From a virus: DNA of 21,191 bases. The stretch covers positions 1 through 21,191 of the IMG/VR virus record IMGVR_UViG_3300037316_000083; one strand, written 5' to 3'. This document shows positions 8,251-21,191 of this stretch, piece after piece. Each line of letters starts with the position of its first letter. Within the stretch, counting starts at the first letter, position 1. Below the pieces are notes generated by a model. The model worked only from the letters and a program-made list of their open reading frames with translations, had not been told where the DNA came from and did no database searches. A program made the position numbers and the translations under genes.

Positions 8251-8444
8251 TTAGCTCTGGCGATGGCTCTGGCGATGGCTCTGGCGTTGGCTATGGCTCT
8301 GGCGATGGCTTTGGCGATGGCTCTGGCTATGGCTTTGGCGGTGGCTCTGGCGATGGCTCTGGCGATGGCTCTGGCGATGGCTCTGGCTTTGGCTATGGCG
8401 ATGGCTCTGGCGATGGCTCTGGCTTTGGCTATGGCGATGGCTAA
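8238..8444 (+). CDS. Gly-X dipeptide-repeat protein encoded by the hexamer array
   Basis: A 68-residue ORF whose ATG lies 12 nt before the end of the DUF6948-like gene. After METVISS it is entirely alternating Gly and one of Ser, Asp, Tyr, Phe, Val or Gly (GDGSGDGSGVGYGSGDGFG and so on), ending GYGDG. In this frame GGC is constant and the variable codon is KNT, so sequence drift changes the residue between the glycines. Proteins of this Gly-Asp/Ser/Tyr type occur as hypothetical phage and bacterial proteins. The product would be disordered, acidic and aromatic-dotted. It may instead be an untranslated repeat. The overlap with the upstream gene and sensible start context make it the most plausible of the frames. 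Confidence 0.5.
   Translation: METVISSGDGSGDGSGVGYGSGDGFGDGSGYGFGGGSGDGSGDGSGDGSGFGYGDGSGDGSGFGYGDG
8254..8439. repeat. 31-copy GCKNTG hexamer array, open in all six frames
   Basis: Thirty-one consecutive hexamers of form GC-[T/G]-N-TG, chiefly GCTCTG, GCGATG, GCTATG and GCTTTG. A 12-bp higher-order unit (GCTCTG-GCGATG) and two copies of a 24-bp block (GCTCTG-GCTTTG-GCTATG-GCGATG) occur. Variation is almost confined to hexamer positions 3 and 4. No frame contains a stop: Gly-X, Ala-Leu/Met and Trp-Leu/Arg rightward; Arg-Ala-Ile-Ala and two others leftward. The array lies between the DUF6948-like gene and a 60-residue Cys-containing ORF. Confidence 0.9.
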
Positions 8445-13084: not shown

Positions 13085-14569
13085 ATGATAGACCTAGAAA
13101 TAAATCTACAACCCAAGCAAAAGTTATTCAAAGAATATATAGAAAAGTATCCAGTCACTTTATTTGGAGGGGCAAAAGGTGGAGGTAAATCAAAAGGACT
13201 ACGCCTTATTCTACTCCTTCGAAGGTTCCAGTATGCCGGAAGCCATGGAGCAATTTTCCGTCGAACTTATCCAGAACTGGAAGGTAACCATATACGGCCT
13301 CTCTTGGAAGAATTCCCTGCTTTACAAAAATATTGGAACTCAAGCAAGAAACTACTCACCTTGCCCAACGGTTCGACGCTTCAATTCTGTCATTGCAATA
13401 ATGAATCTGATATATCCTTGTATCAGGGACGTGAGTTTCATGATTTGGCCATTGACGAAGCGGGGCAATGGACTGAAAGCATGTTTAGGAAACTTCAAGG
13501 CTCTAATCGTTCGTCTAAAGAGGGGATTGAAGCTAAGACAATCTTAACCGGGAATCCGGGCGGGCCTGGGCATAAATGGCTCAAAAGATTATTCATCGAA
13601 CGTCGATTTAACGAAAGAGAAAGGCCAAACGATTATGCATTCATTCAAGCCTTGGTTGACGATAATCCTGCTCTTCTATCAATTGATCCTGATTACGTTC
13701 ATCGTTTGGAATCTGAGCCAAATGAAGCACTTAGAAAAGCTTATCGGCACGGAAGCTGGGACATTTTCGCGGGTCAATTCTTCAATGAAATATCACGCGA
13801 CGTCCATCTTATTAAATCTATGCCTATCCCTCGTCATTGGAATCGCTTCGGTGCTTATGACTATGGCTTTAATCATCCAGCTGCATTCGGATGGTTTGTT
13901 GTAGATGAGGATGGGAATGTGATTCAATACCGGGAATTGGTGCAGGCAGGCTTGAGAGTCGATCAGTTCGCTGAGAGGGTCAATCAATACCCAGACACTA
14001 CCCAGCTTCAAAGTATTGTCGCAGGCCATGATTGCTGGGCTAAGAAGGCCATGATCAATCGAGGGTCGACACCGACGATTGCCGAAGAGTTTTTAAAGCA
14101 TAACCTGATCTTGACACGTGCTAAGATCGATCGGGTTCAAGGGGCATCACAAGTCAGGAATTACCTAGCATGGAGAGATTTAAAGAATGGAAATAGCAGT
14201 CCACGGTTTACGATGTTTGATTCATGTCCCATTAGTTTTGACGCGCTTACTCGCATGGAGCATGACCCAGACCATGTTGAGGATGTACTTAAGATCGACG
14301 CACTCGAAGGGGACCCCATGTCAGGAGATGACGCCTATGACATGGTCCGTTATGCCCTTATGAGTCGACCTCTCATCTCTCAAGCCGAACGCATTAAGCA
14401 TGCTCCAGGTTCCTCCGAATGGGCTCAGCAAGAGGTCGAGAGAATGGAGCAACGCCTTCAAGAGCAAATTGAGCGTGGGGAAGCTCAAGGAAGGGGCGAG
14501 GACATGGATAATACAATTGGATTGCCCGAAGATGATGTGCTGAGATATTACATTAACAAGAGGCGATGA
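13085..14569 (+). CDS. terL: Terminase large subunit (packaging ATPase/nuclease)
   Basis: A 494-residue protein with all the hallmarks of a phage large terminase. Walker A GGAKGGGKS is at residues 28-36, Walker B LAIDEAG has D124 and E125, and a coupling motif TGNPGG is at 155-160. The C-terminal RNase H-like nuclease has AYDYGFNHPAAF at about 258-269, AGHDCW at about 313-318 and GDDAYDMVRYAL near 417-428, supplying the metal-binding acidic residues. It powers DNA translocation into the prohead and cuts concatemers. Length is typical. It follows the Cys/His gene by 2 nt, and the next gene lies 7 nt downstream of its stop. Confidence 0.95.
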   Translation: MIDLEINLQPKQKLFKEYIEKYPVTLFGGAKGGGKSKGLRLILLLRRFQYAGSHGAIFRRTYPELEGNHIRPLLEEFPALQKYWNSSKKLLTLPNGSTLQFCHCNNESDISLYQGREFHDLAIDEAGQWTESMFRKLQGSNRSSKEGIEAKTILTGNPGGPGHKWLKRLFIERRFNERERPNDYAFIQALVDDNPALLSIDPDYVHRLESEPNEALRKAYRHGSWDIFAGQFFNEISRDVHLIKSMPIPRHWNRFGAYDYGFNHPAAFGWFVVDEDGNVIQYRELVQAGLRVDQFAERVNQYPDTTQLQSIVAGHDCWAKKAMINRGSTPTIAEEFLKHNLILTRAKIDRVQGASQVRNYLAWRDLKNGNSSPRFTMFDSCPISFDALTRMEHDPDHVEDVLKIDALEGDPMSGDDAYDMVRYALMSRPLISQAERIKHAPGSSEWAQQEVERMEQRLQEQIERGEAQGRGEDMDNTIGLPEDDVLRYYINKRR

Positions 14570-15330: not shown

Positions 15331-15696
15331 ATGGAACTAGAGACGGTCATAAAAATAGTCGAGAAGATGAGTCAATCCAATGTCAGGGAGTTTGAGATGG
15401 ATGGATTGAAGGTTAGATTTAAAGACTCGTCCATGACTACTAGCGTGAGTAATAATATTCCTATCTTAAAGTCAGTGCCAGTCCATACATCCGGCTATAT
15501 TTCGCTTCAAGATCAATTCCCAGCTCCAAAGCACATTATTCCTGATCCAAAGCCAGAAGAACTATTCAAGCCCTTATCTCCCTTTGAGTTAATGACTGAG
15601 GAGGAGATTTTAATGTATGCGACTCCAAGATATGATGAGATTCAAGCTGAGAAGAAAGCCCATCAAGATAAAATTCTGAGCGAGGGTAAACCATGA
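15331..15696 (+). CDS. Hypothetical protein preceding the portal (121 aa)
   Basis: The N-terminal about 35 residues (MELETVIKIVEKMSQSNVRE then FEMDGLKVRFKD) form a helix and strand. A Pro-rich, extended middle follows (LQDQFPAPKHIIPDPKPEELFKPLSPFEL), then an acidic C-terminal helix (EEILMYATPRYDEIQAEKK). It has GAGGACTT as a Shine-Dalgarno and overlaps the portal gene by 4 nt (ATGA). Its position before the portal suggests a small head or packaging accessory. I do not recognise a family. Confidence 0.65.
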   Translation: MELETVIKIVEKMSQSNVREFEMDGLKVRFKDSSMTTSVSNNIPILKSVPVHTSGYISLQDQFPAPKHIIPDPKPEELFKPLSPFELMTEEEILMYATPRYDEIQAEKKAHQDKILSEGKP

Positions 15697-17621
15697 GCAA
15701 TAAAAAAATTGAACGTCGCAACATGACTCAGACCGATGCCAAAGGTAATGTTCTCAGAGAACCTAAGAACCTAGCTGAGACGGCCGTGAATTATCGTTGG
15801 TGGACTTTGGATGAGTCGGACATGGCAGCGGCGATTGCTGCATGGCTTCTGTTTACAAAACATCATCAAGGTTCCAGAATCGAACAAATGCAGCAGGATA
15901 CGAGATTGTACGGCATGACTTCAGCCTACAATATGATGGGTACAGCATTCACACGTGCGAGTTCAGTCAGCTCAAGTCCGACCACACAAAGAGTCAGCTA
16001 CAACATTTGTGAGAGTATTATAGACACGCTCGAATCAAAAATGGCCAAAAACAAAGTTATTCCAACATTCATAACTAATGGGGGCGATTGGCGAGCGCAG
16101 CAAAAAGCAAAGAAGCTCACGAAATTTGCACAAGGTTTATTCTATCAAGAGAAGGTCCATAACAAGACCATCCGCTCTTGGGGGGACGGGGCTGTCTGGG
16201 GGGACGGCTTCGTACAGGTATTTGAAAAGAATGATAAGGTATGTATCGAGAGAGTACTGCCTCATGAGATATTTGTCGATACGGTCGAATCTCTGACCGC
16301 TGAGCCTCAACAACTTCACAGAGTCAAGTTGATGGATCGAGACATTGCTTTAGAATTATTTCCAGAGTTAGAAGAGTACATTGAAAATGTCTCACCCGCT
16401 AACTATCAAGATATCGGTGGGCAAATGACGGCAGTGGATATCATTTGTGTCACTGAATCATGGCATTTAAAATCGAGTCCCGATGCCAATGACGGAATGC
16501 ATGTATTCTGTGTGGGTGAAGGGGCATTAGCCGAAGAGTATGACAAAGATTACTTCCCATTTCCTCATGTGAGATATGCGAGACGCAAGCTAGGATGGTA
16601 TGGCCAGGGAGCTTGTGAGAGATTACAAAACATTCAAGGTGCCATCAATCGGTGCATGATCCTAAAAGATAGATCCATGTGGATGATGGGCTCTTATAAG
16701 ATACTCATTGAGAATGGTTCGAAGGTCGTCAAACAACATTTGGACAATGAGATTGCAACCGTAGTGACGTATTCAGGAATACCTCCGCAGTATATAACAC
16801 CGCCTTCGGCTAACCCCGAAGTCAAGGAATGGATCGATGCCCTCATCCAGTGGGGTTATCAACAAGAGGGTGTCAGCAGACTCAGTACAACCGGCGAGGC
16901 ACCCTTGGGAGTGGAGAGTGGAAAAGCACTGCGCACTCTATCTCAAATCGGCGATGATCGCTTCCTATTCATGCAACAAGAGTTAGAAGATTTTACTCTA
17001 GAGATAACCCGACAAGCGGTGGATGTAGCGAAAGACATTTACGCGAGGACTAAAAAATATGAAGTGGTTTTCCCAGATACTCGATTCATGGAGACAGTGG
17101 ATTGGAAAGATATTCAGCTGGATAGTGAAGAGTATGTGCTCAAAGCTTATCCTACCTCAAGTCTATCAGACGATATTACAGGGCGTCTCAGTGAGATTCA
17201 AGAGCTAGCACAAGCCGGAATGGTGAGCCCACGTTCTTCCAGGCGATTAATGGATATGCCAGACGTTGAGATGAGTGATTCATTGGCTAATGCAGCTGAA
17301 GATCGTTTGCATCAAATATTTGAAATGATGTTAGAAGATAAGAAGATGATCCGCTTTGAGCCAGGCTTCCATGATGCGCAATTGGCAAGCCAATTGGCAC
17401 TGCAGTACATCAACTATGCAGAGTATTATCAATGTCCCGATGAGAATATACAGCTTGTGAGAGACTTCCTAGCTCAAGTGAACAGTGAGGCGATTACTCC
17501 TCAACCCGGTGTGGTTCCACCTGGAAGCCCACCGAGCGGGCCAACAACTCCGCAAGCAGCGCCTCAACCCACACCTCAATCGAATCTCATTCCCAACAAT
17601 GCAGGAGCACAAGCCGCATGA
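15693..17621 (+). CDS. Portal protein
   Basis: A 642-residue protein with the order and content of a phage portal (head-tail connector). It has an N-terminal helical clip/wing region (AETAVNYRWWTLDESDMAAAIAAW, TRLYGMTSAYNMMG, SYNICESIIDTLESKM), a beta-containing wing with VCIERVLPHEIFVD, and the stem/crown region. Residues about 385-450 carry GIPPQYITPPSANPEVKEWIDALIQWG followed by STTGEAPLGVESGKALRTL, typical of portal loops. The C-terminal about 45 residues are Pro/Gln-rich and disordered. It forms a dodecamer at one vertex through which DNA enters and leaves. It overlaps the previous and next genes as ATGA, and is followed by the scaffold gene. Confidence 0.85.
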   Translation: MSNKKIERRNMTQTDAKGNVLREPKNLAETAVNYRWWTLDESDMAAAIAAWLLFTKHHQGSRIEQMQQDTRLYGMTSAYNMMGTAFTRASSVSSSPTTQRVSYNICESIIDTLESKMAKNKVIPTFITNGGDWRAQQKAKKLTKFAQGLFYQEKVHNKTIRSWGDGAVWGDGFVQVFEKNDKVCIERVLPHEIFVDTVESLTAEPQQLHRVKLMDRDIALELFPELEEYIENVSPANYQDIGGQMTAVDIICVTESWHLKSSPDANDGMHVFCVGEGALAEEYDKDYFPFPHVRYARRKLGWYGQGACERLQNIQGAINRCMILKDRSMWMMGSYKILIENGSKVVKQHLDNEIATVVTYSGIPPQYITPPSANPEVKEWIDALIQWGYQQEGVSRLSTTGEAPLGVESGKALRTLSQIGDDRFLFMQQELEDFTLEITRQAVDVAKDIYARTKKYEVVFPDTRFMETVDWKDIQLDSEEYVLKAYPTSSLSDDITGRLSEIQELAQAGMVSPRSSRRLMDMPDVEMSDSLANAAEDRLHQIFEMMLEDKKMIRFEPGFHDAQLASQLALQYINYAEYYQCPDENIQLVRDFLAQVNSEAITPQPGVVPPGSPPSGPTTPQAAPQPTPQSNLIPNNAGAQAA

Positions 17622-18475
17622 GTAAAGAAGCCGCACTAGCAGTAGCTACAGCATCTAGTCCTAGTCCAGAAGCTGCACCGACAGCAGCAACAACTGGCAC
17701 CTCAACCCCACCTGAGATGGGCTCTAAACAGTTCGCCTTATTTGCAAAAAAAGAAGCCCAGCTCGTTCAAGATCGGCAAGCCCTCAATGCTGAGAGAGAT
17801 AGAGTTCAGGGAGCGGCGAAACAATACGATGAGTACTTGAATACGAAAAAGACCGACCCCATCAAAGCCATGAAAATGATGGGCTTCACAGAGACCGATA
17901 TTTTTAATTACATGGCAGCGGCTGAACCGCAGGAGGTGACTCCTGAACAAAAAGCGATTCAGGCTGCTGAGGCAGCAGCCGATGCTAAGATTAAATCGTT
18001 TGAACAGGCTCAAACTAAAAAAGAGCAAGAGGCTCAGGCGAAGGCTGATCAATCCATCATTCAATCTTATCGGCAAAACGTTTCCCGAACTATTACCGCC
18101 AATCCTGAGAAGTATGAATATTGTAAGTACCATGGACCTTTGGCTGAAGAACTTATCTATGAGACGGTTCTTAAAATTGTCACAGACAGTCAAGGGAAAG
18201 ACGTCCCCACGGCGGAAGAAGCTGCTCAAATGGTAGAGGATTTTTATGAAGGCCAGGATAAGCAAATGAGTCAACTGAAGAAGCGTCAACCGAAACCTAG
18301 TGCCGAAACTACACCTCAACCCACTCGCACAAGGACTCTCTCTAAGCCCCCAGTGCCCACTGCTCCTGCACGCACCTTAAGCAGTCGTGCGACTGTTACC
18401 TCCTCATCGGTTAAGCCTTTGAATGAGACTAGGGATCAGAAGAGAGAGAGATTGATCAATATGTTGAAGGCATAA
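17618..18475 (+). CDS. Scaffolding protein
   Basis: A 285-residue Ala/Gln/Lys/Glu-rich protein directly between portal and major capsid genes, the classical position. Residues 1-35 are low-complexity Ala/Ser/Pro/Thr. Residues about 36-75 (SKQFALFAKKEAQLVQDRQAL) and 95-150 form long charged coiled-coil helices. The C-terminal about 60 residues are basic (LKKRQPKP, TRTRTLSKPP, RDQKRERLINMLKA), typical of a capsid-binding helix-loop-helix end. Scaffold proteins guide coat assembly and are lost from the mature head. The start ATG overlaps the portal stop. Identification rests on composition and position. Confidence 0.75.
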   Translation: MSKEAALAVATASSPSPEAAPTAATTGTSTPPEMGSKQFALFAKKEAQLVQDRQALNAERDRVQGAAKQYDEYLNTKKTDPIKAMKMMGFTETDIFNYMAAAEPQEVTPEQKAIQAAEAAADAKIKSFEQAQTKKEQEAQAKADQSIIQSYRQNVSRTITANPEKYEYCKYHGPLAEELIYETVLKIVTDSQGKDVPTAEEAAQMVEDFYEGQDKQMSQLKKRQPKPSAETTPQPTRTRTLSKPPVPTAPARTLSSRATVTSSSVKPLNETRDQKRERLINMLKA

Positions 18476-19974: not shown

Positions 19975-20003
19975 GGAGAGGGGCATGGTGCTCCTCTCCT
20001 TTA
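19975..20003 (+). terminator. Rho-independent terminator after the major capsid gene
   Basis: GGAGAGGGGC pairs with GCTCCTCTCC over 10 positions (one G-U) around the 5-nt loop ATGGT, followed by TTTATTC. This is the most stable hairpin seen in the head module. It lies 70 nt after the capsid stop, so the next gene would be read by leak-through or by its own promoter. Confidence 0.8.
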
Positions 20004-20068: not shown

Positions 20069-21191
20069 ATGTCGAATCGCAGAGATAATCAATTTACATG
20101 GAATCCACATAACCGAGCAACGGTCTTAGACTGTTCCTTTATCGTGGACTCACAAAATGGGAATGGCTTAGGTATTCGGAGTCTCAAAAACTCGGGACGC
20201 ATCGCATCGGTCTTTATGAACTCAGTTGTAGTACCTTCCGGTAGTCCCGCTTTTGGAACTGCGAGAAGCTATGCGATTATCGGCGCGTCGACAGTGACCA
20301 ATACTGGATCTACCGTTGTGAATGGTAACGTAGGATTGACGCCTGGCAGTGCAGTGGTAGGCTTCCCTCCCGGTATCATCAATGGAGCTGAGAATGTCGA
20401 TAACGCAGCGGCAATGGCTGCAAAGGCTGCAGCTCAAGCCAGTTATACTGACTTGTCGACTCGTCCTTCCACCGTCATTCCATCGGCCTTAGACGGTCAA
20501 ACTTTATTGGCAGGGGTTTATAGTTTCGCCTCAGGTGCAGCGACACTTGCAGCGAGTGCACCCGGCACTTTAACTTTAGATGCGGCAGGGAATCCAAACG
20601 CTATCTTTGTGATTCAAACGGCGACTACTTTAGGGACCGGTGCAGGCGGGGCAGCTACGATTGCATTGATCAACGGAGCAAAGGCATCCAATGTCTATTT
20701 CGCAGTGGGGAGTTCAGCCACACTCAATGTCACGGGTGGCAGCGTTTTCAATGGTAACACCCTTGCTCAGGTATCGGTTACTGTAGGATCGGGCACTGTG
20801 AATGGATCTTTGGTAGCATTGACCGGGGCAGTTACGATTAGCGCAGCCAGTATCATCAATGCAGTCCCCTTCGTTTCAGGTGGAACTACTACTTTGGAAC
20901 CGGGTCTTATCGTCGTTAATTTACAGGATGATTATAATCGATATTTAGGGGGCTATGCAGGCTTTTCAGGACCCCTCAGCGGAACACCACTGGCTGTAAA
21001 TGCGACTGCGTTGACCGTAGGTAATCCTTATGTCATTGTCTCAGTCGGAAATAATACGCCGCAAGATTGGTATGCATTAGGTTTGACGCCTTCCATTGTC
21101 CCCGCTGTAGGGGTAGCCTTTATTGCAGCATTAACAGGGTTTGGAATGACTCCTGCGACCGTTCAAGCTTTATCGGGGACTAACATTCCAG
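20069..21191 (+). CDS. Capsid-associated protein with embedded DUF3494 (ice-binding-type) domain, partial
   Basis: Open from ATG 20069 through the right edge (374 codons seen, no stop). Residues 1-55 (RRDNQFTWNPHNRATVLDC, FIVDSQNGNGLGIRSLKNSG) are a phage-type N-terminal segment. Residues about 59-266 match DUF3494 (PF11999): SYAIIGASTVTNTGSTVVNG, NVGLTPGSAVVGFPPGIING, AGVYSFASGAATLAAS, LDAAGNPNAIFVIQTATTLGT, LINGAKASNVYFAVGSSATL and NGSLVALTGAVTI. This is the right-handed beta-solenoid of bacterial and eukaryotic ice-binding proteins. Residues about 271-374 (LEPGLIVVNLQDDYNRYLGG, VGNPYVIVSVGNNTPQDWY, PSIVPAVGVAFIAALTG) resemble phage decoration-type capsid proteins. No signal peptide. The domain call is from motif recognition. 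Ice binding itself is untested. Confidence 0.8.
   Translation, partial: MSNRRDNQFTWNPHNRATVLDCSFIVDSQNGNGLGIRSLKNSGRIASVFMNSVVVPSGSPAFGTARSYAIIGASTVTNTGSTVVNGNVGLTPGSAVVGFPPGIINGAENVDNAAAMAAKAAAQASYTDLSTRPSTVIPSALDGQTLLAGVYSFASGAATLAASAPGTLTLDAAGNPNAIFVIQTATTLGTGAGGAATIALINGAKASNVYFAVGSSATLNVTGGSVFNGNTLAQVSVTVGSGTVNGSLVALTGAVTISAASIINAVPFVSGGTTTLEPGLIVVNLQDDYNRYLGGYAGFSGPLSGTPLAVNATALTVGNPYVIVSVGNNTPQDWYALGLTPSIVPAVGVAFIAALTGFGMTPATVQALSGTNIP

Follow-up and report, generated by a model that had tools for sequence, protein, structure and literature searches.

A DUF3494 beta-solenoid inserted into a capsid-adjacent phage protein as a candidate virion-surface adhesion cassette

Introduction

Ice-binding domains can hold a bacterial cell at ice, as in MpAFP, the giant ice adhesin of Marinomonas primoryensis. 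The DUF3494 (PF11999) family, with solved members such as EfcIBP (6eio), AnpIBP (7bwx), SfIBP_1 (6bg8), ColAFP (3wp9) and FfIBP (4nu2), provides another ice-binding fold, found in cellular proteins that are secreted or located at the cell surface; mutation of AnpIBP has shown that ice is bound through the B-face of the solenoid (PMC7277481). Almost all swappable add-on domains known from phage particles have Ig-like folds and bind sugars weakly. These Ig-like domains, carried by T4 Hoc, T5 pb10, N4 gp17 and tail sheaths, are modular, dispensable and exchanged among phages; the proteins that bear them include decoration, sheath, baseplate and fibre components (PMC7602432, PMC9230969). Podoviruses may also bear head appendages such as the phi29 gp8.5 head fibre, which aids attachment (PMC7602432), and PF11999 genes of Arctic marine vOTUs have been interpreted as host cryoprotection genes (PMC11515562).

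Here we analyze a viral fragment of 21191 bases from a putative soil phage (the window, meaning the whole stretch of DNA) in which a head-region gene encodes a DUF3494 domain. The domain shares profile, sequence, predicted fold and a Thr/Ser/Ala-rich B-face with the solved ice-binding proteins, but unlike the cellular ones it is free of a signal peptide, is built into a head-region protein of a phage and falls in a clade made up of viral sequences only. It resembles the Ig-like add-ons in being modular, dispensable and exchanged among phages, and occurs on the same classes of protein, although it is a beta-solenoid and not an Ig sandwich, and the protein that carries it matches none of those families. 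PF11999 is phage-borne here as in the Arctic vOTUs, yet in the window it forms part of a virion-type protein. MpAFP offers a likeness in its putative counterpart role, an ice-binding domain that keeps a cell or particle at ice, with a different fold and in a bacterium rather than a virus. The phi29 head fibre can be likened to it as a podovirus head appendage, but no sequence or fold match was found and the display domain differs; the gp8.5 gene, too, presumably adjoins the capsid gene. A literature search, thin in subscription journals, turned up no account of DUF3494 serving as a domain of virions. The best overall explanation, to which we give a probability of about 0.6, is a virion-surface adhesion cassette built on a DUF3494 solenoid, most likely for ice.

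Results

The DUF3494-bearing gene starts with an ATG at 20069 and stays open, without a stop codon, to the last base of the window, so that the gene (20069-21191) is truncated by the contig end and its translated portion comprises 374 residues. It is preceded, in this order, by genes for a terminase, a portal, a probable scaffold and a probable major capsid protein (Table 1). The 428-aa capsid candidate had no Pfam or PHROG match and is probably the major capsid protein on the basis of synteny; a scan with it retrieved 25 viral contigs (65-82% identity). Synteny and this conservation uphold the placement, made in an initial annotation of the window from its letters, of the DUF3494 gene directly after the major capsid gene. 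Relatives keep the order portal, scaffold, capsid, base-protein gene (the gene encoding the segments that flank DUF3494), adaptor and nozzle, some with extra intervening genes: in the window, L026, L059, L086 and L122 the base-protein gene follows the capsid gene immediately, and several genes separate the two in L034, L044 and L072. HNH endonuclease look-alikes, recognized by eye only, lie between them in L002 (9313-9792) and L020 (9393-9884). Terminator-like hairpins were seen in 4 of the 15 gaps examined.

Table 1. Features of the window in the region of the DUF3494-bearing gene.
Feature	Position	Strand	Evidence or remark
Terminase large subunit	13085..14569	+	PF03237 and phrog_979
Portal protein	15693..17621	+	phrog_156, E 2.9e-8
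Probable scaffolding protein	17618..18475	+	between portal and capsid genes; kept in relatives
Probable major capsid protein, 428 aa	18619..19905	+	25 viral relatives, 65-82% identity; synteny
Terminator-like hairpin, 11 pairs then TTTATTCTT	19975..19999	+	between capsid gene and DUF3494-bearing gene
N-terminal base segment, aa 1-55	20069..20233	+	conserved in ~95 relatives; 81% identity with insert-free L026 paralogue
Linker PSGSP ahead of domain	20234..20248	+	P-x-GSP-like linker in 17/56 viral copies
Inserted DUF3494 (PF11999) beta-solenoid, aa 61-268	20249..20872	+	Pfam match at 20276-20854; model
Solenoid B-face segment 1, STVTNT, aa 74-79	20288..20305	+	mapped from AnpIBP (PMC7277481)
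Solenoid B-face segment 4, SSATLN, aa 215-220	20711..20728	+	mapped from AnpIBP (PMC7277481)
Solenoid B-face segment 6, GAVTIS, aa 253-258	20825..20842	+	mapped from AnpIBP (PMC7277481)
C1 base segment	20897..20983	+	HMM map; abuts N segment directly in insert-free relatives (insertion site 1)
C2 small module	20984..21154	+	HMM map; encloses insertion site 2 in some relatives
Beginning of C-terminal part	21155..21191	+	contig end truncates gene; C3 missing

Searching 50,697 phage records by tblastn gave no match for the DUF3494-bearing protein, the capsid protein or two other viral DUF3494 domains, and the portal protein matched at 21% only. A search for the host with a capsid profile found no match in 297 genomes from the phylum to which the Granulicella genome belongs, or in 399 from that of the Nitrosospira genome. 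Two glycine-rich proteins, probably of the tail tip or fibre, are encoded at the opposite end of the contig (75-1235 and 1609-4548), and positions 8254-8442 hold 16 copies of a 12-base tandem repeat, GCTCTGGCGATG, in which several frames are open and read GDGSGDGSG or MALAMALA.

The identity of the inserted domain is clear from both profile and structure. PF11999 matched residues 70-262 with 136.2 bits against a cut-off of 28.7 (E 1.6e-39), covering profile positions 1-207 of 208, and the nearest solved chains by sequence were EfcIBP (6eio, E 9.7e-31) and AnpIBP (7bwx). An AlphaFold2 model of the domain (pLDDT 86-96 across most of it; helix at 113-130) is a triangular beta-solenoid with a long helix on one face. 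Its top PDB fold match was 6eio (E 7.6e-15, TMt 0.83), and all 31 PDB matches at E<=0.001 were DUF3494 ice-binding proteins. The initial annotation had named a clear DUF3494 beta-solenoid and proposed an HMM search and a structure prediction as checks; the score far above the cut-off and the solenoid obtained agree with it. It had also described the N segment, the domain and the C segment as continuous in one frame, which they are; domain-free relatives join the same two segments directly. The C-terminal segment, called phage-type, does recur in relatives, but in the window it is incomplete because the contig ends.

In the contigs from the capsid scan, the next gene also encodes these N and C segments; in most cases nothing stands between them and the protein has ~215-255 aa. 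A scan for this base-protein family yielded 102 viral contigs, of which 80 were retained, and relatives of the base protein number ~95. HMM mapping gave the architecture N, site 1, C1, C2 and C3. Among 76 non-redundant base sequences, 47 had nothing at site 1, 10 (from nine distinct phages) had DUF3494 there and 7 had a different module of 70-86 aa. This other module is beta-rich (L002, L012, L013, L016, L019, L022 and L058), and Pfam gave no match to it in those members that were scanned. A further insertion site lies within C2, where 12/76 sequences carry an extra ~100-200 aa; these insertions, in the base-protein genes of L089-L104, had no Pfam match in five members scanned. When an insert-free member was modelled with AlphaFold2, site 1 fell in the loop that links strand 45-49 to strand 68-73. 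Tandem base genes occur in four of the nine DUF3494-bearing phages, the first gene without and the second with the domain (L026, L062, L067/L068 and L071/L072). Relatives with and without the insertion, which the initial annotation had suggested seeking, thus both exist and reveal a plug-in site, and we regard the insertion and its recurrence as real with near certainty.

The likeness of the C segment to decoration-type proteins that had been proposed was not borne out: no PHROG, Pfam or PDB family matched the flanking protein, and a fold search with the insert-free base protein returned nothing significant in PDB or BFVD. Because the base is without a known family or fold, the label decoration-like is drawn from where the gene lies and from the modular make-up of the protein; the gene does occupy the capsid-adjacent position in the head module expected of a decoration protein, and no homologue among the known decoration families or folds was found.

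Scanning with the DUF3494 domains of the window and of L026 retrieved 51 viral loci. Beyond the base family, DUF3494 was present in undoubted virion proteins: tail sheath proteins (L140, phrog_2839 and PF17482; L145, phrog_279), a protein of the baseplate J type (L113, PF04865) and tail-fibre-like proteins (L120 and L133). Other carriers, including the 1411-aa protein of L106, had no family match besides PF11999. A P-x-GSP-like linker stands ahead of 17 of the 56 viral copies, the window's included, across differing host proteins. The initial reading stands as to a true DUF3494 solenoid in a capsid-adjacent gene, but the domain is no lone curiosity: it recurs as a cassette across several kinds of phage virion protein. 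Proteins with two or three DUF3494 domains, or adjacent genes of one phage that share as many, were seen in L118, L120, L124, L133, L134, L144 and L146.

On a base tree built from the base segments with the insert excluded, the presence of DUF3494 required 8 changes, at least 4 of them forced by well-supported branches. In the domain tree, copies from the base family were interleaved with those from other phage proteins, and a single clade for the base-family domains was rejected (AU test, p = 0.0027). A single inherited insertion is thus rejected under the model used, loss and exchange being indistinguishable in some cases, and the DUF3494 cassette was independently acquired several times. 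The window domain falls in a virus-only clade (25 rows, SH-aLRT 99); its best viral match has 62-65% identity and its best cellular match 47%, the latter in a bacterial set collected by patterns from two phage domains, which under-samples cellular copies unlike those two.

To characterize the putative ice-binding face, we mapped the six B-face strands of AnpIBP onto the DUF3494 alignment and scored 24 outward positions. In the window, 87.5% of these are Thr/Ser/Ala/Gly and 37.5% Thr, with no charged (0/24) and no bulky (0/24) residue, compared with Thr/Ser/Ala/Gly contents of 87.5% in EfcIBP and 71% in AnpIBP. The flat Thr/Ser/Ala face for which the initial annotation had suggested looking is accordingly present, of the kind seen in functional ice-binding proteins. 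Entropy at these positions was 0.67 bits versus 1.23 bits at polar strand positions on other faces (p = 0.002; 25-row phage clade), a conservation in keeping with a functional site of binding. That the B-face mediates binding to a surface is probable. Cellular DUF3494 copies, not all of which need bind ice, show the same low B-face entropy, so that the pattern does not separate ice from another flat ligand; ice is the leading candidate, at somewhat less than even odds.

The strongest competing ligand is a sugar lattice, with the B-face docking to bacterial surface glycans or to soil polysaccharide such as cellulose, peat or biofilm. Weak adhesion to carbohydrate or cells is the role mostly ascribed to decoration proteins and to the add-on domains of sheaths (PMC7602432, PMC9230969), and it has been suggested for the Ig-like domains in Hoc and pb10; the spread of DUF3494 over decoration-like, sheath, baseplate and tail-fibre proteins, as well as insertion sites that accept other beta modules, recalls those domains. 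However, the nearest solved structures are all ice-binding proteins, the constrained, uncharged, Thr/Ser-rich face is the counterpart of the known ice-binding face, and aromatic or charged residues of the sugar-site type are almost missing from it; we consider a glycan adhesin unlikely, although it is the alternative to be taken most seriously. The domain could also be a mere spacer or stabilizing bulge without any ligand, since the inserts at site 1 are variable and often missing, and hence dispensable. Constraint on outward B-face positions that exceeds that on the other strand surface, and the repeated recruitment of the same domain, speak against this and make it decidedly improbable.

Export signals bear on whether the gene instead serves the infected cell. 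By a crude hydropathy rule, signal-peptide-like starts were found in 72 of 84 cellular DUF3494 ORFs versus 6 of 54 viral ones, the six being internal or late starts or tail-sheath-like N-termini, and by the same rule the N-terminus of the window protein has no signal peptide, in keeping with the absence of a secretion signal first noted from the letters. The protein thus has the features neither of an exported (secreted or cell-surface) protein nor of a stand-alone secreted cryoprotection protein. An auxiliary gene whose product cryoprotects the host is the published reading for three Arctic vOTUs with PF11999 (PMC11515562), but for the copies studied here the lack of an export signal and the insertion into virion-type proteins, a conserved head-region gene in the window and sheath and baseplate proteins elsewhere, argue against it and leave it a very slight chance. 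Our data argue for a structural role of phage PF11999 over that of a host cryoprotection gene. A fusion created by an assembly or frame error, suggested by the location of the gene at the extreme end of the fragment, was rejected as having a negligible chance, given that eight other distinct phages have the same architecture uninterrupted and distant from contig ends.

Discussion

Incorporation into the virion, binding of a ligand and the identification of that ligand as ice are inferences that differ in strength. Display of the DUF3494 protein on the virion is likely. The phage is tailed and probably a podovirus, and the gene product would lie on the surface of its particle in the manner of a head decoration protein, with a base (N, C1 and C3) that is a beta-rich domain, presumably on the head or neck. 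The DUF3494 solenoid is plugged into the loop that joins base strands three and four, and would act as an adhesion cassette: its B-face, flat and rich in Thr/Ser/Ala, would order water and attach to some regular surface. That surface would most likely be ice, in freezing soil or peat, and virions might thereby be held at ice-water interfaces or protected through freezing. The cassette would be swapped among phages in the manner of Ig-like domains.

A broader proposal is more tentative. Several uncultured tailed-phage lineages might have ice-binding virions, with exchanged DUF3494 cassettes on heads, tail sheaths and baseplates by which particles adsorb to ice crystals, and so, where soils freeze, persist or collect hosts; we consider this a possibility with the odds against it. 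If true, a second kind of add-on, built on an ice-binding fold and repeatedly acquired, would link virion design to freezing environments, and direct tests of phage persistence in permafrost and peat would become possible. PF11999 in viromes should not be scored automatically as host cryoprotection genes.

Some of the contigs may come from permafrost or glacier-forefield samples, a point that played no part in the analysis. Spartobacteria MAGs from palsa (L178, L167 and L173) hold the sole cellular DUF3494 copies within a mostly viral clade, and these copies may be prophage-borne or may be donors.
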